Source: Actinomycetota bacterium (GTDB lineage Bacteria; Actinomycetota; Acidimicrobiia; Acidimicrobiales; Acidimicrobiaceae). Taken from it: DNA of 32,199 nt. The DNA lies in contig DAHVKW010000008.1 in the NCBI GenBank assembly GCA_027320695.1, positions 1-32,199 of the forward strand, given 5' to 3'. The position numbers and the translations under genes were made by a program. The notes below the pieces were generated by a model. It was given only the letters and a program-made list of their open reading frames with translations, did no database searches and was not told the DNA's origin. Position 1 is the first letter of the stretch; each line of letters opens with the position of its first letter. Shown in pieces: positions 1-31,266 of this stretch.

Positions 1-612
1 CAACCAACATCAGGTATCATCCTGCCCTAATGGTGCAACAGCAACCTCGATCACCCTACGAGCCCTGTTGGTCGCCGCTTGCTTGCCATAAAGCCGCGCA
101 CAGAACGATGTCAGGATTTCGGTCATGTCTTGGACCAGGTCGTCGTCCAGTTCGGTCGGGTCCATCACTATCAGTTCCCTCCCTTGGGCTGCAAGAGAAG
201 CCTCCACGTACTCCACGGCAAAGCGAGCGAAACGATCTCGGTGTTCAACAATGATCCGAGACACCGATGGATCGCGTAACAAGGCTAAGAACTTACGTCG
301 ATGACCATTGAGCGCAGATCCAACCTCGCTAACCACTCGGTCAACGCTTATCTCTTGAGATGTTGCCCATTCGGTGACTCGCGCCACTTGTCGATCTAGA
401 TCGGACTTCTGGTCCACCGAGGAGACTCGTGCATAAACGACGGTCTGTCCTTTTTGACGGACGTCGTCGAGAGCATCCACCAAAATCAGTCCCCCTACCT
501 TGCGAGCGGAAACGGGCAACTTCCCATCACGGAACCAGCGATAGGCAGTGATTCGAGCTATTCCTTGAGATTCGGCCCACTCAGCAAGGTTCATAGTGTC
601 AGTATAGTACAT
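1..612 (-). mobile_element. Partial IS607-type insertion sequence, clipped by the left window edge
   Basis: tnpA ends TGA at 10-12. A minus-strand ATG at 8-10 overlaps this stop (TGATG), consistent with a tnpB reading out of the window. The outer end of the element was not mapped. Confidence 0.6.
10..594 (-). CDS. tnpA: IS607-family transposase TnpA (MerR-type HTH plus serine resolvase domain)
   Basis: MNLAEWAESQGIARITAYRWFRDGKLPV (helix-turn-helix) followed by VVYARVSSVDQKSDLDRQ and VEHRDRFARFAVEYVE (serine recombinase). Internal ATG at 594 preferred over ATG at 612. Confidence 0.9.
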   Translation of the reverse strand: MNLAEWAESQGIARITAYRWFRDGKLPVSARKVGGLILVDALDDVRQKGQTVVYARVSSVDQKSDLDRQVARVTEWATSQEISVDRVVSEVGSALNGHRRKFLALLRDPSVSRIIVEHRDRFARFAVEYVEASLAAQGRELIVMDPTELDDDLVQDMTEILTSFCARLYGKQAATNRARRVIEVAVAPLGQDDT

Positions 613-1184: not shown

Positions 1185-1601
1185 CTATTTTTTCGTTTCC
1201 CAGAAGATCTTGTCAATCTCGGCAATTTGGGTCAGGAGATCTTGCGCCACCGCGGTGTCATTGGTTTTCTTGCTCTCGCCAGCAGCCTTGGTTGCTTTCC
1301 AGAAGAGAGTGTGGAGTTGTGGGTACTTTTCAAGGTGCTCCGGCTTGAAGTAGTCGGTCCACAGTACCCATAAATGATGCTTGACGAGCTCTGCGCGCTG
1401 TTCTTTGATTGTCACGGCGCGTGACTTGAAAACCGAGTCGTCGGATCCATTGAATTTCTCCATGCAAGCCTTGACTGAGTCTGCTTCGATGCGAGCCTGG
1501 GCGGGATCGTAAACTCCGCAGGGGAGATCACAGTGGGCAGAAACTGATACTGGCGTAGCGATTCCTTCTAGTGACTTGATGACCCTGGCGAGTAGCTTCA
1601 T
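1185..1601 (-). CDS. sodN: Nickel-containing superoxide dismutase precursor
   Basis: Propeptide followed by the Ni-hook HCDLPCGVYDPAQARIEA; body ...EQRAELVKHHLWVLWTDYFKPEHLEKYPQLH...IDKIFWETKK. Upstream AAGGAG RBS. Confidence 0.97.
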   Translation of the reverse strand: MKLLARVIKSLEGIATPVSVSAHCDLPCGVYDPAQARIEADSVKACMEKFNGSDDSVFKSRAVTIKEQRAELVKHHLWVLWTDYFKPEHLEKYPQLHTLFWKATKAAGESKKTNDTAVAQDLLTQIAEIDKIFWETKK

Positions 1602-5360: not shown

Positions 5361-5999
5361 GTGGAAATGGACGGCGGAGATTATCTTGTTTCTTTGAATT
5401 TAGCGGGTCTCAAGGTGCTGGTAGTTGGGGCCGGCACGGTGGCCGCTAGGAAGATCGGAGGACTGCCTGCTTCAATTCTAGGCGTGACCGTTGTTGCGCC
5501 TGAAATAAGCAAAGAAATCGTGGAACTGCTGGCCCGGGCCAATTGGGAAGTCGACATCGCGCAACGAGAGTTCGAACCTTCGGATCTCTCAGGGTGCGAC
5601 CTTGTATTTGCAGCTACGTCAGATTCGGGGGTAAACGGCGAAATTGCAATGCTTGCCCGGGAACGGGGCATCCTTGTCAATGATGTATCGGATTCCCTAC
5701 AAAGCAGCTTTAGCAACGTGGCTCTGGTGAATAAAGGGGGAATCTGCATTGGAGTATCCTCTAATCCCAAGGTTCCCGGATTTTCCAAGGCGGTCAGTAA
5801 ACTTATAGAAGAAACGTTGCCGGAAGACCTTGATAGGTTGTTGGTCCTAGTAGCGGCGGTAAGGTCAAAGGCTTTAGATTCTGGTCATTCCGCAGACGGT
5901 TTAGATTGGGTAAAAGTATTACATTCCAGAGTTTTCGAATATATTCGCATGGGTGATTTTCCCCAGGCTGAAGAAAGTTTGGCCGAATGCCACTTGTAG
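5361..5999 (+). CDS. Precorrin-2 dehydrogenase / sirohydrochlorin ferrochelatase-type protein (CysG N-domain/Met8/SirC-like)
   Basis: LAGLKVLVVGAGTVAARKIGGL, LVFAATSDSGVNGEIAMLARERGILVNDVSD, GICIGVSSNPKVPGFSKAV; adjacent to hemA and cobA-hemD. Confidence 0.9.
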   Translation: MEMDGGDYLVSLNLAGLKVLVVGAGTVAARKIGGLPASILGVTVVAPEISKEIVELLARANWEVDIAQREFEPSDLSGCDLVFAATSDSGVNGEIAMLARERGILVNDVSDSLQSSFSNVALVNKGGICIGVSSNPKVPGFSKAVSKLIEETLPEDLDRLLVLVAAVRSKALDSGHSADGLDWVKVLHSRVFEYIRMGDFPQAEESLAECHL

Positions 6000-7240
6000 C
6001 CATTGGAATTGATAGGTCTAACTCACCAATTGATGACTTTGGCCGCTATTTCGTCTCTGAAGAGGACATGCTTGACAGGCTGAAGATATTTTCTTCAGCA
6101 GACGGAGTCGAGGAGGCGGTACTGGTATGCACCTGCGCGCGAACCGAGATTTTTGCTGAGATAACCAAGTTCCATGGCGGGATCGAGGAAATGTGGATCA
6201 ATTTCGCGAGGATGCTGCAGGTTGAACGTGAAGAGCTGGCTTCGGCAGCCACCGTGTATTACGAGAGAGGAGTCGTGTCTCACCTACTCAGGGTCGCCTC
6301 CGGCCTGGAGTCTGAGCTGATCGGTGAAACAGAAATCCTTGGCCAGGTCCGCAGAGCCTTTCTCCGATCCCATGATGCCGGATATTGCGGGCCCGGTCTC
6401 TACGGTTTGTTCCGAAAAGCGCTGGAGGTGGGAAAGAGGGCCAGGAGCGAAACCGGAATTGCCCGAGGAATTACCTCTTCGGCGCACGCTGCGGCAGGGC
6501 TTTTCTCGGAAGCCTGCGGCCTCGAGGGCAATGGCACCGTGATGGTAATTGGTGTTGGTGAGATTGGATCGAAGCTCGCGGAGGCCTTGTCACAGGGAGG
6601 TTATGACGTGTTCTTGACGTCACGGACCTTTGCCAAAGCCGAGAGTCTTGCCAACCGCATCAATGCTAAGGCGGTCCACATTCATGACTTCAAGTCCTAC
6701 ATACCTGATCTAGACGGTATTTTTCTCGCGACTTCTTCGAAGAAGCATTTGTTGGATGGCGACGACGCCGAGCTATTCGACCCCGCACGCAATTCCAAGA
6801 CATTCATAATCGACATGGGGGTTCCCAGAAACGTGGATCCCGCCCTGGATTCTTTTGGCGGAGTAACCTTGTACGATCTCAACGGAGTCAACGCATTCGT
6901 GAGGAGCGCCATCGAGCATCGCCAGCAGGAGGCGGAGCTAGTCGAGGAGATCATTGAATCTGAGACCAGCAAGTTCGTCGATCTGAAGAACTCGGGATCC
7001 GCCGCCTCTACTGTTGCCTCGCTATATGCATTTGCCGAAGAGGTTAGACTTCTGGAGCTTGCACGGTTTTCCGGTCGGCTCGAGGGTTTGACCGACGCTC
7101 AGAGAAAAGTTGTCGAGTCCCTGACCTATGGAATTGTCCGAAAAATTCTTCACCGGCCCGCTGCCAAGGTCAAAGAGCATTCCGGTTCCAAGAGGGGGGA
7201 GCGTCTGGTAGAGGATCTCTCCTTCTTGTTCGATTTATGA
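5987..7240 (+). CDS. hemA: Glutamyl-tRNA reductase
   Basis: CTCARTEIFAE catalytic Cys region, RVASGLESELIGETEILGQVRRAF, GVGEIGSKLAEAL, ITSSAHAAA; overlaps the upstream gene by 13 bp. Confidence 0.96.
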   Translation: MPLVAIGIDRSNSPIDDFGRYFVSEEDMLDRLKIFSSADGVEEAVLVCTCARTEIFAEITKFHGGIEEMWINFARMLQVEREELASAATVYYERGVVSHLLRVASGLESELIGETEILGQVRRAFLRSHDAGYCGPGLYGLFRKALEVGKRARSETGIARGITSSAHAAAGLFSEACGLEGNGTVMVIGVGEIGSKLAEALSQGGYDVFLTSRTFAKAESLANRINAKAVHIHDFKSYIPDLDGIFLATSSKKHLLDGDDAELFDPARNSKTFIIDMGVPRNVDPALDSFGGVTLYDLNGVNAFVRSAIEHRQQEAELVEEIIESETSKFVDLKNSGSAASTVASLYAFAEEVRLLELARFSGRLEGLTDAQRKVVESLTYGIVRKILHRPAAKVKEHSGSKRGERLVEDLSFLFDL

Positions 7241-8142
7241 AGCCGATCAGAATTGCCACGCGAGGTTCGGAACTGGCGCTGTGGCAGGCAAAGTTCATCG
7301 CCGAGAGGCTGGGGCGCGAATCAGAACTGGTAGTCCTAAGTACGCGCGGCGATAGAGATCAGGCTTCATCGCTTAGCGAAATTGGCGGCCAGGGTGTTTT
7401 CGTTAAAGAGATACAGGCCGCACTTCTTGATGGCCGTGCCGACGTGGCGGTTCACTCCGCCAAGGATCTTCCGACTCAAGCGGTTGATGGGCTTGTTATA
7501 GGTGCCTATCCTAAAAGAGGGGATCCCCGCGACGCCCTCATCGGGAAGTCATTGGAACAGCTGAAACCGGGCGATCTAGTTGCCACAGGTTCCATCAGAC
7601 GCCAAGTGCAGCTTAAAGCTATCAGGCCTGATCTCAACTTTGCTGCGCTCAGGGGAAACATGGCGACTCGTTTTGCAATGGCGGAAAGAGTCGGTGCTGT
7701 TGCAGTCGCCTACGCGGCCTTGGAAAGGTTGGGCCGCATCGATCTGGCCGCGCAGGTTTTCGATCCAACCCAGATAATACCCCAGGTTGGACAGGGCGCA
7801 TTGGCCGTTGAATGCAGGTCGGGCGCTGATGACCTGCGCGGCTTGCTCGCAGATATTGACGATTTGCCAACCAGGTTGGCGGTCGAATCTGAGCGCAATC
7901 TACTGAGGCAGCTTGGCAGCGGCTGCGCGCTGCCGGTTGGCGCATACGCGGTTACGCGTTTGTCCGACAGCCAGATTGATCTGATCGCGTTCGTAGGCTC
8001 GATTGACAGCACAACCGAAATTCGCGTCAGTGGCAGTGGTGGCGATCCGATTGCCTTAGGTTCCCGGCTTGGTCGTGAACTGCTGGCCAAGGGTGGCGCC
8101 GCGCTGTTGGAGCAGACGGCTGCAGGCGAGAAACATGACTGA
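7237..8142 (+). CDS. hemC: Porphobilinogen deaminase (hydroxymethylbilane synthase)
   Basis: IRIATRGSELALWQAKFIAERL, VHSAKDLPTQ, GSIRRQVQLKAIRPDL, GSGCALPVGAYA. Confidence 0.97.
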   Translation: MKPIRIATRGSELALWQAKFIAERLGRESELVVLSTRGDRDQASSLSEIGGQGVFVKEIQAALLDGRADVAVHSAKDLPTQAVDGLVIGAYPKRGDPRDALIGKSLEQLKPGDLVATGSIRRQVQLKAIRPDLNFAALRGNMATRFAMAERVGAVAVAYAALERLGRIDLAAQVFDPTQIIPQVGQGALAVECRSGADDLRGLLADIDDLPTRLAVESERNLLRQLGSGCALPVGAYAVTRLSDSQIDLIAFVGSIDSTTEIRVSGSGGDPIALGSRLGRELLAKGGAALLEQTAAGEKHD

Positions 8143-9598
8143 AATCGTTGCTGGAACGGTTTACCTGGTGGGAGCCGGACCCGGAGATCCCGGTCTGCTG
8201 ACCATCCGTGGGAAAGAGCTGCTCTCAATGGCAGATGTAGTGGTGTTTGATCACCTGTCAGACGAGTCTCTGCTCGAATTCTGCAAAGAAGGCGCACGTC
8301 TTGTAGATGTTGGCAAACGCCCGGGACGCCCAGTGCCCCAAAACGAAATCAACGAAGTTTTGATCCGCAGCGCAATGAGCTCCCGGACGATCGTCAGGCT
8401 GAAGGGCGGCGACCCGTTCGTATTCGGTCGCGGAGGCGAGGAAGCTCTCGCTCTAATCGATGCTGGGATTTCATTTGAAGTCGTGCCCGGCGTTTCCTCG
8501 GCGGTTGCCGTGCCCGCCTATGCTGGTATTCCAGTTACGCATCGCGGGCTTTCGACTTCGTTTACGGTGGTCACCGGACATCGGCACGGAAATGCCACCG
8601 ACCAGGTCGATTGGGAATCTCTTGCCAAACTTGGGGGGACAATCGTCGTGCTCATGGGTGTCGCGCACCGGTTTGAGATTGCTGAGAAGCTGATCAGCGG
8701 GGGTCTGGCGCCCAAGACGCCAGTCGCAGCTATTCGATGGGGTACGAGAGGCGACCAACTTACGATCCGAACGACCTTGGAGGACCTCGGAGGCGCTGAG
8801 ATACTTTCGCCGTCGACGATCGTGATTGGCGGCGTCGCCAGCCTTGATTTGAATTGGTTTGGAAAGCGGCCATTGCTCGGCAAGAGGATCGTGATTACCC
8901 GGGCCAAGGCACAGTCGGCGGGCCTGGAGCAAAAGCTCAGGGACCTGGGCGGGCATGTTATCTCTGTGCCTGCAATCAGAATCGGACCCCCTGTCGACAA
9001 TTATCAAGCTTTGGCGGAAGCCGCGGAAAATATCTCGCGCTACGACTGGATAATTTTTACCTCGGCAAATGCCGTGCCGAGATTCTTCAAATTTTTACGC
9101 GATTCACGCGATCTTGCTGGCGTCAAAGTAGCCGCAATCGGGGAAGGCACCGCCAGAGAAATTGCCAAGTTCAACATTGTCGCGGACCTGGTGCCGCCGC
9201 GCTTCGTCGCGGAGGCTCTAGTCGCGGACTTCCCTCCCGGCTCCGGACGCATCTTGCTGCCGCGCGCCGAAGTGGCGAGAGACGTGATACCTGTCGAGCT
9301 GGGCAGGACGGGTTGGCAGGTGGACGTGGTCGAGGCCTACCGAACCGAAATCCCGCCCATGGACATCGAACTTGCAGAGAAGATTGTGGCTAGCGACGCA
9401 ATAACCTTCGCGTCGTCTTCTGCTGCTTCGAACTTCTTGTCAAAGTATGGCGTCGGATGTTTGCCGGCACTAGTGGTCTCAATCGGTCCGATCACAAACA
9501 AGACGTTGGAAGAGTTCGGGGTCAGGAACTCAGTCATGGCTGCTACCCACGATATGGGCGGGCTCGTAAATACGCTGGTCTCTTCGCTGAATCAATAG
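8135..9598 (+). CDS. Fused uroporphyrinogen-III C-methyltransferase / uroporphyrinogen-III synthase (CobA-HemD)
   Basis: VYLVGAGPGDPGLLTIRGKELL, VRLKGGDPFVFGRGGEEALAL, VPGVSSAVAVPAYAGIPVTHRG (SUMT) followed by a HemD domain (GKRIVITRAKAQS ... WIIFTSANAVPRFF ... AITFASSSAASNF). ATG at 8135 preferred over 8069. Confidence 0.95.
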   Translation: MTEIVAGTVYLVGAGPGDPGLLTIRGKELLSMADVVVFDHLSDESLLEFCKEGARLVDVGKRPGRPVPQNEINEVLIRSAMSSRTIVRLKGGDPFVFGRGGEEALALIDAGISFEVVPGVSSAVAVPAYAGIPVTHRGLSTSFTVVTGHRHGNATDQVDWESLAKLGGTIVVLMGVAHRFEIAEKLISGGLAPKTPVAAIRWGTRGDQLTIRTTLEDLGGAEILSPSTIVIGGVASLDLNWFGKRPLLGKRIVITRAKAQSAGLEQKLRDLGGHVISVPAIRIGPPVDNYQALAEAAENISRYDWIIFTSANAVPRFFKFLRDSRDLAGVKVAAIGEGTAREIAKFNIVADLVPPRFVAEALVADFPPGSGRILLPRAEVARDVIPVELGRTGWQVDVVEAYRTEIPPMDIELAEKIVASDAITFASSSAASNFLSKYGVGCLPALVVSIGPITNKTLEEFGVRNSVMAATHDMGGLVNTLVSSLNQ

Positions 9599-9604
9599 GG
9601 CCAA

Positions 9605-9636
9605 ATTCGCATTTGGGTTGATTCGCATTTGGGTGG
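9605..9636. repeat. Two-copy 16-bp tandem repeat in the hemD-hemB spacer
   Basis: ATTCGCATTTGGGTTG / ATTCGCATTTGGGTGG, 15/16 identical. Confidence 0.85.
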
Positions 9637-9730
9637 CGCTGCCTGCAAGGGGAATAGCATCCTGGCGACGAGCCGGAGAATACCCGCTGTTGCCTGCTGG
9701 GTGAGGTCGGGAATGAAATAATCTGGAATT

Positions 9731-10711
9731 GTGACTTTTCCAATGCATCGTCATCGCCGCCTAAGAAGAACTCCTGCTCTTCGCCGTCTCGTGTCGGAGA
9801 CTAGTCTTAGCGTCGATGATCTGATCACCCCAATTTTCGTTCGTGAGGGAATTGATTCCCCAATCGAGATCCCATCTTTGCCAGGAGTGTTTCAGCACGA
9901 CGTCAAATCGGCCACTGAGTTTTGCAAGCGGCTCATCGATCTCGGTATCCCAGGAGTGATTATCTTCGGCATACCTGAGAGCAAGGATGAACTCGGATCG
10001 GCTGCTTGGGATCCGGATGGAATAGCGCAAGTCGCCATTTCTGAAATCAAATCGGCGGTTGCTGACGATTTGGTTGTGATGGCCGACCTGTGTCTTGACG
10101 AGTACACCTCCAGCGGCCACTGCGGAGTTTTCAGGTCTCCAAGCGATGTTGACAACGATGCCACGCTTGAGCTGTATGCAAAAGTGGCGATTGCGCAGGC
10201 GCAGGCCGGAGTGGATCTAGTTGGGCCATCGGGGATGATGGATGGTCAGGTCGGCGTGATCCGCAATGCCCTCGATCACGATGGTTACACCGACGTGGGA
10301 ATCATGGCCTACTCTGCAAAATATGCTTCAGCTTTATATGGCCCGTTCAGATATGCCGTGGACGTAACCATTGCCGACGGCGGCAACAGGAGCACTTACC
10401 AGCAGGATTTTCGCAACTCCAAGGAGTCCTTGTCGGAAATACTTGCCGATGTGGACCAAGGCGCTGACATTGTTATGGTCAAGCCGGCCATGACGTATTT
10501 GGACATCGTCTCGCTGGCAAGCCGAAACGTGACGGTCCCTGTAGCCGCATATCACGTGTCTGGGGAGTACGCAATGATAAAGGCTGCCGACGCCAACGGT
10601 TCGATAGACGGTGACGCAGTCGCGATTGAACAGCTGACAGCCATCAAGCGTGCCGGCGCGTCGATGATATTGACTTATTTCGCTCCGTTTATATCGGAAC
10701 TATTGGGCTAG
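9731..10711 (+). CDS. hemB: Delta-aminolevulinic acid dehydratase (porphobilinogen synthase)
   Basis: HRHRRLRRTPALRRLVSET, VMADLCLDEYTSSGHCG, VGPSGMMDGQVGVIR, VMVKPAMTYLDI, YHVSGEYAMIKAA; GTG start. Confidence 0.97.
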   Translation: MTFPMHRHRRLRRTPALRRLVSETSLSVDDLITPIFVREGIDSPIEIPSLPGVFQHDVKSATEFCKRLIDLGIPGVIIFGIPESKDELGSAAWDPDGIAQVAISEIKSAVADDLVVMADLCLDEYTSSGHCGVFRSPSDVDNDATLELYAKVAIAQAQAGVDLVGPSGMMDGQVGVIRNALDHDGYTDVGIMAYSAKYASALYGPFRYAVDVTIADGGNRSTYQQDFRNSKESLSEILADVDQGADIVMVKPAMTYLDIVSLASRNVTVPVAAYHVSGEYAMIKAADANGSIDGDAVAIEQLTAIKRAGASMILTYFAPFISELLG

Positions 10712-10768
10712 CTGTCGGCTGCAGGTAGCCTCCATTTATCTCGCCGACGAACAAGGAGCCGAGAACTC

Positions 10769-12082
10769 ATGTCTGCCCATTCAGAACCGTCCTATACCAA
10801 CAAGCAGCTTTTCGAGCGAGCATGCAAAGTAATACCTGGTGGCGTGAATTCTCCCGTGCGGGCCTTCAAATCGGTGGGCGGAACCCCTTTTTTTGTCGCC
10901 AAGGGGAAGGGTGCGTACCTGATCGACGAGGAGGGCAAAAGCTACATAGACTACATTCAGTCTTATGGCGCAGTGATCCTTGGTCATGCTGATGAGCGGA
11001 TTACTTTAGCCATCGAGCACGCCGCGCGATTAGGTTCGACTTTTGGAGCCCCCACCTTGGGAGAAGTTGCTCTGGCAGAGTTGATCGTCGGCAGAGCCGA
11101 GGGATGCGACATGGTGCGCCTCACCTCGTCAGGAACCGAGGCGGCAATGAGCGCCGTCCGTTTGGCTAGGGCTTTCACTGGACGGGAAAAGATACTCAAG
11201 TTTGACGGCTGCTACCATGGGCATTCCGACGCCTTGCTTGTAGGAGGCGGCTCAGGTGTCGCTTCGCTCGGGATCCCGGATTCAATTGGGATTCCTCAGG
11301 GCGCAGTCTCTAACACGGTCGTTGCTCCCTATAACGAGTTGCCGCCCATAGACGATACCTATGCCGCGGTGATCGTTGAGCCTGTGGCCGCCAATATGGG
11401 CCTTGTTCCCCCGGCCCCCGGCTTTCTGGAGGGCCTTAGGAAGCTCTGCAGTGAAAATGGCGTTGTGCTGATTTTCGATGAGGTAATCACTGGATTTCGC
11501 CTCAGCGCCGGCGGAGCCTCCAGGTATTTCGGAGTTGTCCCTGACATGTGGTGTTTTGGCAAGGTCATTGGCGGCGGCATGCCAATTGGAGCCTTCGGAG
11601 GCAGACGGGACATCATGGAATTGCTGGCGCCTATTGGTCCTGTCTATCAAGCTGGCACCTTGTCCGGTAATCCCTTGGCGACTAGTGCCGGCGCAACCGT
11701 TCTTGGCCTTCTTGACGATGCAAGATACCAGGATCTTGCTCAAACCGCCGAGCGATTAGCAAATGGCCTGAAAGAGGCGATAGCCTCCGCTGGGATCGAG
11801 GTTCAAGTTCCGCGGGTGTCGACTCTTGTCGGCATATTTTTCGGTTCCGATCCCGTAGACAATTACGCAGATGCCAAGCGATCGGTGGCTCTTGGCCTTT
11901 ACCCCAAGTTTTTCAAGGAAATGCTGGATTTGGGAGTTGCTCTGGCACCTGGCCCATACGAAGCCATATTCCCTGGGCTGAGCCATACCGACATTGAAGT
12001 CAGCCGTACTGTCGAGGCGGCCGCGGAGGCGGCGGCAAGGATTTCGAGGTTGCCGACTGACTCTCCGTATCCCGGCAAATAA
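10769..12082 (+). CDS. hemL: Glutamate-1-semialdehyde 2,1-aminomutase
   Basis: VIPGGVNSPVRAFKSVGGTP, LTSSGTEAAMSAVRLARAFTGR, FDGCYHGHSD, FDEVITGFRL, GKVIGGGMPIGAFGG. Confidence 0.98.
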   Translation: MSAHSEPSYTNKQLFERACKVIPGGVNSPVRAFKSVGGTPFFVAKGKGAYLIDEEGKSYIDYIQSYGAVILGHADERITLAIEHAARLGSTFGAPTLGEVALAELIVGRAEGCDMVRLTSSGTEAAMSAVRLARAFTGREKILKFDGCYHGHSDALLVGGGSGVASLGIPDSIGIPQGAVSNTVVAPYNELPPIDDTYAAVIVEPVAANMGLVPPAPGFLEGLRKLCSENGVVLIFDEVITGFRLSAGGASRYFGVVPDMWCFGKVIGGGMPIGAFGGRRDIMELLAPIGPVYQAGTLSGNPLATSAGATVLGLLDDARYQDLAQTAERLANGLKEAIASAGIEVQVPRVSTLVGIFFGSDPVDNYADAKRSVALGLYPKFFKEMLDLGVALAPGPYEAIFPGLSHTDIEVSRTVEAAAEAAARISRLPTDSPYPGK

Positions 12083-27608: not shown

Positions 27609-30600
27609 TCAGGGGTTCGACGGAGAATCGGCAGGGTTTAGAAAACGCCCAATTATTGGCAGCTCCCACAAAGCTTCAGCCCTGGCGATTGCCAGCAGAA
27701 TGGCCGGGGCGTGCTCGGCGTTATCGTAGATCACGTATCTAGGATGCCAGTGGGGATCGAACTTGGAATTGAAGCGCCACAGGCTTTCGATTTGCATAGA
27801 ATCGCCCATGCGCTTGAGAAACCATTTTTCTACCCGCTGGGTCACTGAGCCCATCTCTCCAGAGAGAACGGCGCGCATGGTTGCAAAGTTGAGACTTAGG
27901 TGTTCGTAGCCATTGCTTGCCAGGTGGTCGATCGTTGACACGATCATGAAGTCCATAAGCCCGTTCGGATGCGCCCCGAGGTCCCGCCTCATGAGATCAA
28001 GGGAGTAGCCGTTGATTCCAGGCGCAGGCACCCATTGGCAGAAACCTACGACGCTTCCGCCGCTATCCTTGCACACGGTTAGTAGCAGATGCTTGTCAGA
28101 TGGGTCGAAGACTCTTCCCAAAGTCATCGAGAAGCCCCTTTCCGCCTCTCCTTTTCTGCTCTGGCTCATGACGGACATCAGAGCGGCCTTTAGCTGAGGA
28201 TCTAATCTGGAAGGGTCATGGAACTCGATGGTGTATCCGTATTTTCGGATTCTCCCCACTGCTTGGCGAAGTCCTTTGTTCTTTTTGCCTTCCAGTTGGG
28301 TTTCGTTTACAGCGACAATGGCTTCGTCGCCGACGTAGACAGAATGCATTCCCGTGGCTTGGTAGTTATCGAGCCAGGCCTCATCCGCGCCAAGCACGCC
28401 GACTATCCACCCCTTGGCGTTGGCGAAGGTGAGGAACTCTTTCCATGCTTGAACCTTCGTGGTGTCTGGTCCTACGGGATCAGGGGAAACAAGCGCCACG
28501 GATCCGTAGTTGGCATATGCCACGAGGCAGCCATGGGCAAAGAAGTAGCGTTTGTCGTCCCTCAGCGCGAAATAATCGAGGGTACCGTTCGAATATCTTC
28601 CCACGATGGCTCGGGCCCTTTCGCGCTCAGACCTGGCGCCAAATCTCACGGAAAGTCCCACCGATCTGTCGACGACAGGACGAAACGCCAGGAATAGCGC
28701 GATTGTCACGAGACACAGTCCGCTCAGTGCCAATGCCGGGGCGGCGAACTGGTCGATAGTTCCCGGCAAGAAGTGCGAGGAGAAACCCGCCATTCTTTCG
28801 CTAACTGCGATGAAGGTATACCAGTATGAGAAGCCGTGGTTGTGTTTTATCAGCGTTATGTAGCCAAAGACGATGCTTGTGCTAAAGATGATGATTGCGG
28901 CCGCCCCCAGGACTAAAGCCCGAACGCCCCGCCTCAGCGAGGGGCGGTCGGAAGGCGCTTTGAAGCTGTTCCTCTTGCTTATGAGGTACAGGGTGAGGAT
29001 TAGCAAGGCGAGGGCCTCTTCAAAGTCGCCTCCCTTGACCAGGTTCAAGCTGGCGGCGCCGATGGACAGCACCAGCGCAAAGGTCCACGCCTGTCTCTGG
29101 CCTCTGCGCACTCCGCCTGCCAGGAACATAAGGCCTATTGAAGCCATCGCCACCAAAGCGCTGGCCGTCGTCGAGATGGTTACGGGAAGAAACTCCTGAA
29201 TGACATGCAGCCTTGATCGTATTGGAGGAGTCAGCGCCGATGCGAGGTCCAGCGCGCCGACAATGAAAATGGCGGCAGATGCAATCCTTCTGGAACGTAC
29301 TTGCTTTACCACTGGAAGCTGATCTTCCCGGTAGTCGCTTCCATCCGGGAATGAGGCAAGCTGTCCGGATCGAAATGCCTTGTCTTTTCTCTTGCTGATA
29401 AGGAGCTGCTCGACTAGAGAATCCGCTTTGGCAAAACTGGTGCTGCTCAGGAGCCGCGCATGAAGCGCTGCACCGACATCGATCTCGATCCAGGTGACCT
29501 GATTTCTGGGCCTGAATATTGCCGGAAGTCCAAATGCCGCGGGAGCTTCCACGTAGATTCGAGACACCGATCCAGTACAGGCGAAAAAGCCATCACCGAC
29601 TCTAGACAGCTCGGGCGTAAGAAAATGACCCGCTATGAGGCCGGCATAACCGTCTTCAATCGCTTTGGCCGCACCCAGCCGTGCGTTTACGTTGATGTCG
29701 GAAGTCTTTATGTTTTCAGATTCTTCGCTTACGAACCGGGAATAGGAGATGCGAAGCAGTATGAGAATGGCGATCAGTAGAACCGCGGAATCAATTATTG
29801 TTGCCGCGCCGATATAGGCTAATCGCGAACCAAGGCTTACTGCATGGTATTTCAACCGGTTTATAACGGGAAGAGAAATCACAATCGGGATCTTTACCAG
29901 AAATGAGAGCACCAGCGGCAGCAGGATCCAAGGAGCGACTCGAACGGCTTTTTGATAGGTAATCCTTGAAATAACGAATCTCACCGACGCGATGGGGTCT
30001 CTTAGACGCTCGACACCTTGGAGCCATTTAGATTTCTTGTTTGACTGGTACCTTGGCCAGAAATCAGCCAGCAAGTGTTGTGCCCAGGGCGTTTCAACTG
30101 GCGAATATGGATCCTTTGCGCTGGTTATAGGATCGAACTCTCTCCCAGCGGTTACCCGGACTTTTTCGAATCCGCCGATGGTTTCTATCTGGAGATCAAT
30201 TTCCAGCGCTAGTTCAAACGGGAAGATTCGGCGTAAATTTGCCGCTGCCGCCGTATCGTAGGCGAGTCTTGAGTCTCTGAAGCCCGGAAGAACGAATATT
30301 TGCACGCTTGCCCGGTTGATAAGCGACTCGAAGGCCTGGAACAATGGCGAATCGGGAACTGTGCTCGAATCGTCCGAATGGGTCAGAAAATCAAGGAGAT
30401 TTCCTGCGATAATAACTGTCCCAGGTCCGTCCCAGCGGTTTAAGGCGGCAATGAACCGTTCAAGGCAATATTGATCAGAGGTGGAGCTTGAGCCTTCGAC
30501 TGACGGCTTGATGAAGAAGTCCGATGCAATCAGGACCTTTTCGCCAATGCCGACCTCGACCGTACGAATCGCGGGACAATGGATCGAGACTGCATTTGAA

Positions 30601-30653
30601 TCCGGGGCCGAATGGTTGTCAAGATGGTCAGGGTTTGTTGGGAAATCACTCAT
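27609..30653 (-). CDS. Membrane protein: degenerate calcineurin-like phosphoesterase domain + multi-TM region + DUF2156 / lysylphosphatidylglycerol-synthase-like C-terminal domain
   Basis: N-terminus VLIASDFFIKP / VIIAGNLLDFL / VLPGFRDSRL / AGREFDP / IAGHFLTPELSRVGDGFFACTGS aligns by eye to metallophosphoesterase motifs. TM segments follow. C-terminus FALRDDKRYFFAHGCLVAYANYGSVALVSPDPVGP ... GFCQWVPAPGINGYSLDLMRRDLGAHPNGLMDFMIVSTIDHLASNGYEHLSLNFATM ... LWRFNSKFDPHWHPRYVIYD is DUF2156/MprF-like. Confidence 0.85.
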   Translation of the reverse strand: MSDFPTNPDHLDNHSAPDSNAVSIHCPAIRTVEVGIGEKVLIASDFFIKPSVEGSSSTSDQYCLERFIAALNRWDGPGTVIIAGNLLDFLTHSDDSSTVPDSPLFQAFESLINRASVQIFVLPGFRDSRLAYDTAAAANLRRIFPFELALEIDLQIETIGGFEKVRVTAGREFDPITSAKDPYSPVETPWAQHLLADFWPRYQSNKKSKWLQGVERLRDPIASVRFVISRITYQKAVRVAPWILLPLVLSFLVKIPIVISLPVINRLKYHAVSLGSRLAYIGAATIIDSAVLLIAILILLRISYSRFVSEESENIKTSDINVNARLGAAKAIEDGYAGLIAGHFLTPELSRVGDGFFACTGSVSRIYVEAPAAFGLPAIFRPRNQVTWIEIDVGAALHARLLSSTSFAKADSLVEQLLISKRKDKAFRSGQLASFPDGSDYREDQLPVVKQVRSRRIASAAIFIVGALDLASALTPPIRSRLHVIQEFLPVTISTTASALVAMASIGLMFLAGGVRRGQRQAWTFALVLSIGAASLNLVKGGDFEEALALLILTLYLISKRNSFKAPSDRPSLRRGVRALVLGAAAIIIFSTSIVFGYITLIKHNHGFSYWYTFIAVSERMAGFSSHFLPGTIDQFAAPALALSGLCLVTIALFLAFRPVVDRSVGLSVRFGARSERERARAIVGRYSNGTLDYFALRDDKRYFFAHGCLVAYANYGSVALVSPDPVGPDTTKVQAWKEFLTFANAKGWIVGVLGADEAWLDNYQATGMHSVYVGDEAIVAVNETQLEGKKNKGLRQAVGRIRKYGYTIEFHDPSRLDPQLKAALMSVMSQSRKGEAERGFSMTLGRVFDPSDKHLLLTVCKDSGGSVVGFCQWVPAPGINGYSLDLMRRDLGAHPNGLMDFMIVSTIDHLASNGYEHLSLNFATMRAVLSGEMGSVTQRVEKWFLKRMGDSMQIESLWRFNSKFDPHWHPRYVIYDNAEHAPAILLAIARAEALWELPIIGRFLNPADSPSNP

Positions 30654-30738: not shown

Positions 30739-31266
30739 ATGTTTGTCAGCAAGTCGGTTCCGGCCCACTGGATATTTCCACAAGATAGTACCAAAAACTT
30801 CGCAAGCCTAACCGGTCCTGCCGTCTTGTGTGATCTCGATGGCGTGCTTTCAGACGCCGCCTGGCGGCAGCATTTCATCGAGAAGGGCAAGTATAAAGAC
30901 TGGGACAGCTTCTTTCAGAACTGCGGAGATGATCCGTTTCTCGACGAAGTCGCCACGGTGCTTTCACTGCTCGACAAAGATCTCGCGGTGATTCTGCTCA
31001 CCGGAAGGCCCTCCTCGGTAAAGCGGCAGACCGTATCTTGGCTGAGAAACAACTCGCTTCGCTGGGACGTATTGATAATGCGGGACTTTGGCGACTATTC
31101 AGCTGCCACAGAGTTCAAGTCCGAGAGCGTTGATGAAATACGCCGTCATGGGGTCGAGCCGGTGTTGGCATTCGAAGACGATAAGCGCAACGTAGAAATG
31201 TTCAAGGCCAAGGGAATCCCTTGCGTTTACATTCACTCCGGCTATTACGACAGGATCAATCCCTAA
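30739..31266 (+). CDS. Small HAD-superfamily phosphatase (polynucleotide 3'-phosphatase-like)
   Basis: HAD motifs: AVLCDLDGVLSD (I), VILLTGRPSS (II), EFKSE (III Lys), LAFEDDKRNVEMF (IV). Confidence 0.75.
   Translation: MFVSKSVPAHWIFPQDSTKNFASLTGPAVLCDLDGVLSDAAWRQHFIEKGKYKDWDSFFQNCGDDPFLDEVATVLSLLDKDLAVILLTGRPSSVKRQTVSWLRNNSLRWDVLIMRDFGDYSAATEFKSESVDEIRRHGVEPVLAFEDDKRNVEMFKAKGIPCVYIHSGYYDRINP

Follow-up and report, generated by a model that had tools for sequence, protein, structure and literature searches.

The fused gene and its surroundings

The window analysed here, a stretch of 32,199 nucleotides that makes up positions 1 to 32,199 of contig DAHVKW010000008.1 from an actinomycetotal bacterium of the family Acidimicrobiaceae, carries on its minus strand a gene (27612..30653, ATG start) for a protein of 1014 amino acids (aa) in which a degenerate calcineurin-like metallophosphoesterase (MPE) domain is fused to a LysX/MprF-type lipid aminoacyl-transferase. 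The open reading frame (ORF) that an earlier note on this DNA had placed at 27609-30653 is real and includes the stop codon (27609-27611, minus strand); the plus strand of the same region contains many stops, and in most genomes of the genus and family the reading frame of a full-length homolog is uninterrupted. The full-length protein was modelled with AlphaFold 2 (AF2) at a predicted local distance difference test score (pLDDT) of 80.6 and a predicted template modelling score (pTM) of 0.78. The genome to which the window belongs is a 1.9-Mb draft, 70% complete; its closest matches with a name in the genome collection are metagenome-assembled genomes labelled Acidimicrobiaceae or 'Actinomycetes', the named isolates Ferrithrix thermotolerans and Acidiferrimicrobium being further off.

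Fold and descent of the N-terminal domain

The N-terminal domain (aa 30-415; 29409..30566, minus strand) is not recognised by simple searches. The window's own N-terminus gives no match in Pfam or in a sequence search of the PDB, and profile A1, built on the degenerate form and matching aa 30-415 at 1.3e-149, finds no credible match among PDB sequences; the intact profile A5 finds LpxH there at 0.006, which is a hint only. Relatives with complete motifs are more informative. A stand-alone protein, L036, has all the MPE motifs (SDLH, GD, GNHD, HGH and GHTH) and matches Metallophos at 1.2e-7, and in the intact fused protein of L235 a Metallophos match over the cut-off (1.7e-7) and an LPG_synthase_C match (4e-68) lie in a single ORF. 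When the profile of the window's family was aligned by hhalign with one built from 23 intact or near-intact MPE domains, the two matched end to end over 389 columns (Prob 100, E 6.1e-92), with all five motifs in register (SDLH/SDFF, GD/GN, GNHD/GFRD, EHGHQ/TAGRE and GHTH/GHFL).

The fold agrees with this descent. The AF2 model of aa 22-430 (pLDDT 82, pTM 0.83) was compared with the PDB by Foldseek, and the top three matches were LpxH structures (6e-7 to 2e-6, best 6.4e-7), while the remaining matches listed belong to the MPE superfamily or to its non-catalytic relatives (Vps29 and DNA polymerase B subunits); identity to LpxH in the structural alignment is about 11-12%. By fold and by descent the domain is therefore a member of the MPE superfamily, as the earlier note had proposed for the N-terminal ~400 aa from motif spacing and context. 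That the N-terminus might not be an MPE, given the missing Pfam match, is ruled out by the intact relatives, the hhalign result and the fold search, and a register artefact hiding intact ligands elsewhere in the protein is ruled out by the motif pairing; neither of the two findings that the note had named as fatal to its reading was obtained.

Loss of the metal site

Active MPEs hold their metals through seven ligands (D, H, D, N, H, H, H), which in Pseudomonas aeruginosa LpxH are Asp8, His10, Asp41, Asn79, His114, His195 and His197 (PMC5016852). The corresponding positions of the window protein are D45, F47, N85, F125, A169, H343 and L345, so that only two of seven, D45 and H343, remain. Motif I reads SDFF (aa 44-47; 30513..30524), with D45 kept and the His ligand replaced by F47; motif II reads GNLLD (aa 84-88; 30390..30404), the bridging Asp being replaced by N85; in motif III, GFRD (aa 124-127; 30273..30284), the Asn ligand is replaced by F125 and the position of the catalytic His is held by R126; in motif IV, AGREFDP (aa 169-175; 30129..30149), the His ligand is replaced by A169; and in motif V, GHFL (aa 342-345; 29619..29630), H343 is kept and the second His ligand is replaced by L345 (all minus strand).

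The five motif readings of the earlier note and their numbering (SDFF 44-47, GNLLD 84-88, GFRD 124-127, GREFDP 170-175, GHFL 342-345) are correct, and every motif is indeed changed, but two metal-binding residues persist among the changes, and two details needed revision. At motif IV the ligand lost is A169 and not R171, since intact relatives read HGH, HGN or HGD and the LpxH ligand is His114, which identifies the ligand as the His before the Gly. At motif III the His is not among the seven metal ligands, and an Arg in its place at aa 126 would not by itself be proof of inactivity, because LpxH too has Arg there. The domain also falls short of LpxH, which combines a complete metal site with the motif III Arg: the window protein has the Arg but lacks the Asn ligand and four of the others. 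Loss of the dinuclear metal site, and with it of catalysis, is well supported for the lineage of the window, so that dinuclear MPE chemistry is not possible, and the domain would be expected to be inactive in vitro.

Intact relatives and the order of loss

Intact versions, whose existence had been left as a question, do exist. All seven ligands are kept in 21/21 stand-alone proteins and in 5 of the 133 distinct fused proteins; among the other fused proteins one keeps six, three keep four or five, and 124 keep three or fewer. The difference in ligand retention between stand-alone and fused proteins has a Fisher p of 2e-21, but this test ignores shared ancestry, and it is therefore the tree that carries the argument. 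The tree was computed from the synthase domain only, the MPE part being unused, and was rooted with LysX/MprF-like outgroups; its annotations count positions out of eight, whereas the tallies above count ligands out of seven.

Intact fused proteins form the first branches of this tree (L221, then L196, L074 and L075), which means that the fusion began with its site intact. Next comes a mixed group, where L106 (intact) and L183 (nearly intact) stand with L213, L107 and L214, which have lost the site, and then L170 (5/8 positions) and a lost clade of 121 members (0-3/8 left; SH-aLRT 100) that includes the window protein. A careful mixture-model tree of 51 rows agrees, with support of 91/97 for the lost clade and of 89/94 and 99/98 for the mixed group. 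Since intact L106 lies inside a supported group together with losers, there were independent losses: the line that leads to the window lost the site at least once, and other lines lost it separately. The note's 'former phosphohydrolase' is in this way strongly supported by the fold, the profile match, the stand-alone and fused intact relatives, and the intact basal branches of the rooted tree.

Within the lost clade the old site has not changed in one way only. Asn is found at the bridging-Asp position (N85) in 90/121 members, D127 or an equivalent Glu in 114/121, and Arg or Lys at the motif III His position in 55/121, while the replacements at the bridging position vary by lineage (N, G, A, S, P and R). 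One genome, G194, has the MPE and the LPG synthase as two overlapping ORFs (L238:5086-7949), which could reflect gene splitting, a frameshift or a faulty assembly.

The synthase half

As the earlier note had recognised, a second block of membrane helices and a DUF2156/LPG_synthase_C domain follow, now identified through Pfam and NCBIfam matches and the helices of the AF2 model. The helices (aa 448-657; 28683..29312, minus strand) fall in the PF16995 region and resemble the LysX N-terminal part or MprF subdomain 2. The tandem-GNAT LPG_synthase_C domain (PF09924, aa 682-976; 27726..28610, minus strand) was matched at E 2.7e-63, with 214 bits against a curated cut-off of 27.5. Sequence and fold matches of this half in the PDB are the synthase domains of MprF and of the lysyl- and alanyl-phosphatidylglycerol synthases L-PGS and A-PGS (structure matches 2e-25 to 2e-17), and the structure match of the synthase domain to 4v36 has a TMt of 0.83. 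The motifs GDEAI, SLDLMRR and FNSKFDPxW, invariant or nearly so in 46 homologs, align with GxEA, DLMR and KxxPxW of the solved synthases.

The closest NCBIfam models are LysX (NF002821; aa 453-1001, 8e-82, model positions 17-574 of 1102) and then MprF (NF033480), both under their equivalog cut-offs. With LysX of Mycobacterium tuberculosis the protein shares the synthase membrane helices and the LPG_synthase_C domain, without a flippase, but LysX has a C-terminal lysyl-tRNA synthetase, whereas the window protein ends after the synthase domain and has the MPE-fold domain at its N-terminus. With MprF, known from P. aeruginosa and Rhizobium structures, it shares the synthase half, but the N-terminal flippase subdomain is missing (no PF03706 match in the protein by Pfam) and an MPE-type domain with a single membrane hairpin is found instead; PF03706 flippase-like proteins are encoded by separate genes elsewhere in the genome. 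The protein can thus be classed by its sequence as a LysX/MprF-type synthase that is neither MprF proper nor LysX proper. The fused gene is the only PF09924 gene found in the window's genome and in each other genome tested that carries a fused gene.

The membrane hairpin and the likeness to LpxH

Between motifs IV and V the domain has a two-helix membrane hairpin (aa 220-315; 29709..29996, minus strand), predicted by AF2 as helices at aa 220-264 and 274-315. Its hydropathy profile peaks at 237-255 and 281-299, which bears out the hydrophobic segments noticed earlier between these motifs. Stand-alone relatives show the same pair of peaks. In LpxH a helical insertion (residues 119-173) between His114 and His195 holds the acyl chains of lipid X, and Arg80, at the motif III His position and unlike in other MPEs, forms a bidentate salt bridge to the lipid phosphate (PMC5016852). 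LpxH is the closest PDB fold, and it has a helical insertion between motifs IV and V and an Arg at the motif III position, which is R126 in the window protein. The hairpin occupies the position of the LpxH lipid-binding insertion; the form is different, since the insertion of LpxH has four helices and belongs to a peripheral membrane protein, whereas the window domain has a long membrane-spanning hairpin, and LpxH retains all its metal ligands, as against two of seven. The likeness of R126 to the LpxH Arg is suggestive but not universal, and, because intact relatives carry His there, it is convergent.

Gene neighbourhood

At least one of NuoM, NuoN, a HAD-type phosphatase and YajQ is encoded near the fused gene in 67/80 collected loci, though not in L221, L196, L183 and L170, where the fused MPE is wholly or partly intact; most Acidimicrobiia copies retain the nuoMN-yajQ neighbourhood. 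In the window the divergent neighbour (30739..31266, plus strand) encodes a HAD-type phosphatase (HAD_PNKP, 4.5e-13) that is close to the fused gene in many relatives and has a weak LNS2/lipin-type match, below the cut-off. Replacement of the lost MPE activity by this phosphatase is not supported: its distribution does not follow the loss of the MPE site, as G134, G064 and G203, with an intact or nearly intact fused MPE, carry the HAD gene, while several degenerate genomes (G012, G014 and G015) are without a match.

In G134 (L235) the intact fused gene has a metallo-beta-lactamase/dienelactone-hydrolase pair on one side and two TrkA genes on the other, and a matching neighbourhood in G037 (L227; same family, 99% complete) surrounds a stand-alone intact MPE, with no PF09924 gene; neighbours in both were named from sequence appearance, except where Pfam was run. 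On the simplest reading of these sequences, the synthase half would have been dropped in G037 and an active MPE retained, the MPE having stayed intact where the synthase went and usually died where the synthase was kept. Stand-alone MPEs are not always paired with an LPG synthase, as G037, G504 and G332 have no PF09924 gene.

Stand-alone intact hairpin MPEs adjoin an MGDG_synth-type (diacylglycerol glycosyltransferase-like) gene in L231, L244, L246, L247, L249 and L252, in several orientations and with overlap in some loci, which suggests a lipid-linked function for this uncharacterised MPE family. Alpha/beta-hydrolase genes adjoin lipid aminoacyl-transferases in unrelated bacteria (L235:9645-10691, L223 and L225) and could possibly encode aminoacyl-lipid hydrolase partners.

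Retention and possible role of the dead domain

Between the window protein and its nearest relative (dS ~1) the dead domain has a ratio of nonsynonymous to synonymous substitution rates (dN/dS) of 0.072, as against 0.057 for the synthase part; in other close pairs the dead domain lies at ~0.07-0.4, usually above the synthase part. The domain is therefore under purifying selection and has been retained across most of the lineage, which indirectly supports the 'repurposed' of the earlier note. Descent from active ancestors, loss of catalytic residues and retention under selection, the three marks of a pseudoenzyme, are all found at the sequence level.

The history that we consider probable is that a lipid phosphoesterase, still active, was joined to an aminoacyl-lipid synthase and later became a metal-free domain for lipid binding, positioning or regulation. 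The synthase would transfer an amino acid from tRNA to phosphatidylglycerol, diacylglycerol or a related acceptor; LysX can make lysyl-diacylglycerol, and LysX homologs can use diacylglycerol as acceptor (PMC10580965). In the ancestor it would have been joined to an active, LpxH-like MPE anchored by the membrane hairpin, which probably acted on a lipid phosphate near the pool of acceptor lipid; a lipid phosphate of the membrane as substrate of the intact MPE is suggested by the hairpin at the LpxH insertion site, the MGDG_synth-type neighbours and the use of diacylglycerol by LysX homologs. The lineage of the window then lost the metal site, while the fold, the hairpin and, in many members, the motif III Arg/Lys stayed, and the dead domain, which takes the N-terminal place of the MprF flippase, most likely binds or positions a lipid or phosphate head group beside the cytosolic synthase domain, or regulates the synthase. 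The former substrate class, the binding of lipid and the regulation by the dead domain are put forward here as what this history would predict. Several observations weigh against it: the deepest branching order among intact forms is weakly supported in the mixture-model tree, the MGDG-type neighbour occurs in a minority of loci and in one family only, intact relatives have His at motif III and the Arg/Lys occurs in only the 55 of 121 lost-clade members counted above, in most pairs change is faster in the dead domain than in the synthase, and in at least one lineage, that of the 850-aa fused homolog L027, the MPE part is largely deleted, so that the domain can be eroded. The last two imply that a permissive scaffold would suit the data as well as a lipid sensor.

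It could be that the domain is a plain scaffold or membrane anchor that replaces the MprF flippase subdomain and holds the synthase at the membrane, the old pocket binding no ligand. We regard this as a serious but rather unlikely alternative: the hairpin and the fold are kept while pocket residues diverge widely, the MPE domain is the faster-evolving part, and the membrane part of MprF does position the catalytic domain (PMC8131360), yet the synthase has membrane helices of its own (aa 448-657), and D127/Glu and N85 are better kept than a bare anchor would need. A little less likely still is a more specific form of regulation, in which a lipid pathway of two enzymes would have been turned into an enzyme with an allosteric lipid sensor. 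An active LpxH-like phosphoesterase would have supplied or consumed the acceptor (for example phosphatidic acid to diacylglycerol, or phosphatidylglycerol phosphate to phosphatidylglycerol) before being fused and demetallated, and as a built-in sensor of phospholipid it would now gate aminoacylation by the synthase. In that case the stand-alone proteins with intact sites would be actinobacterial lipid phosphatases of an uncharacterised family. The regulatory or ligand-sensing part envisaged in the earlier note, the presentation of lipid and the plain scaffold are thus competing proposals, drawn from sequences and models.

Neutral decay of a relic kept only through its joining to the synthase would account for the many independent substitution patterns, the dozens of members with 0/8 positions and the N-terminal truncation of L027, but it is improbable, as every close pair that gave a usable estimate has a dN/dS far under 1, the fold is confidently predicted and the ~385-aa domain is present in nearly all fused proteins examined. 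Continued enzymatic activity of the domain, with another set of metals or with none, could be argued from D45, H343 and several conserved polar pocket residues; we hold it to be very improbable, with five of seven ligands gone, the bridging Asp included, and with replacements that vary by lineage at that position, unlike a new conserved active site. The chance that the N-terminus has an unrelated fold and was assigned to the MPEs in error is negligible: the absence of Pfam and PDB sequence matches would fit, but unbroken homology to intact MPEs and the LpxH structure match already contradict it.

Precedents and significance

A dead calcineurin-like phosphoesterase fold is kept as a non-catalytic part in DNA polymerase B subunits, which the fold search recovered and Pfam matched weakly; these are replication subunits, whereas the dead domain of the window is fused to a membrane-lipid enzyme and has intact fused relatives that survive. 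Vps29 of the retromer, also recovered in the fold search, is another case of a non-catalytic role of the MPE fold, but as a eukaryotic scaffold, unfused to an enzyme and without a membrane hairpin. No published MPE-MprF/LysX fusion or pseudoenzyme form of it was found in the open literature searched, which is no proof of novelty.

Pseudoenzymes are usually found once their active ancestors are gone or distant. Here stand-alone intact, fused intact, partial and fully degenerate forms coexist in one bacterial group, and the loss of catalysis inside a fused membrane enzyme can therefore be traced stepwise; moreover, thanks to close cousins with an intact active site, both what the domain once did and what it does now can be tested. 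Lipids that carry amino acids reduce the charge of the membrane and give protection from acid and cationic antimicrobial agents, and the fusion predicts membrane lipids as the substrates of the uncharacterised stand-alone hairpin MPEs.

Other genes of the window

Elsewhere in the window a resolvase-type recombinase gene lies at the edge (10-612, minus strand), followed by a gene for nickel superoxide dismutase (PF09055, 2e-46; 1185-1601, minus strand). A haem biosynthesis run (5987-12082, plus strand), with genes for glutamyl-tRNA reductase, porphobilinogen deaminase, ALA dehydratase and a class-III aminotransferase, is located upstream of respiratory complex I genes.

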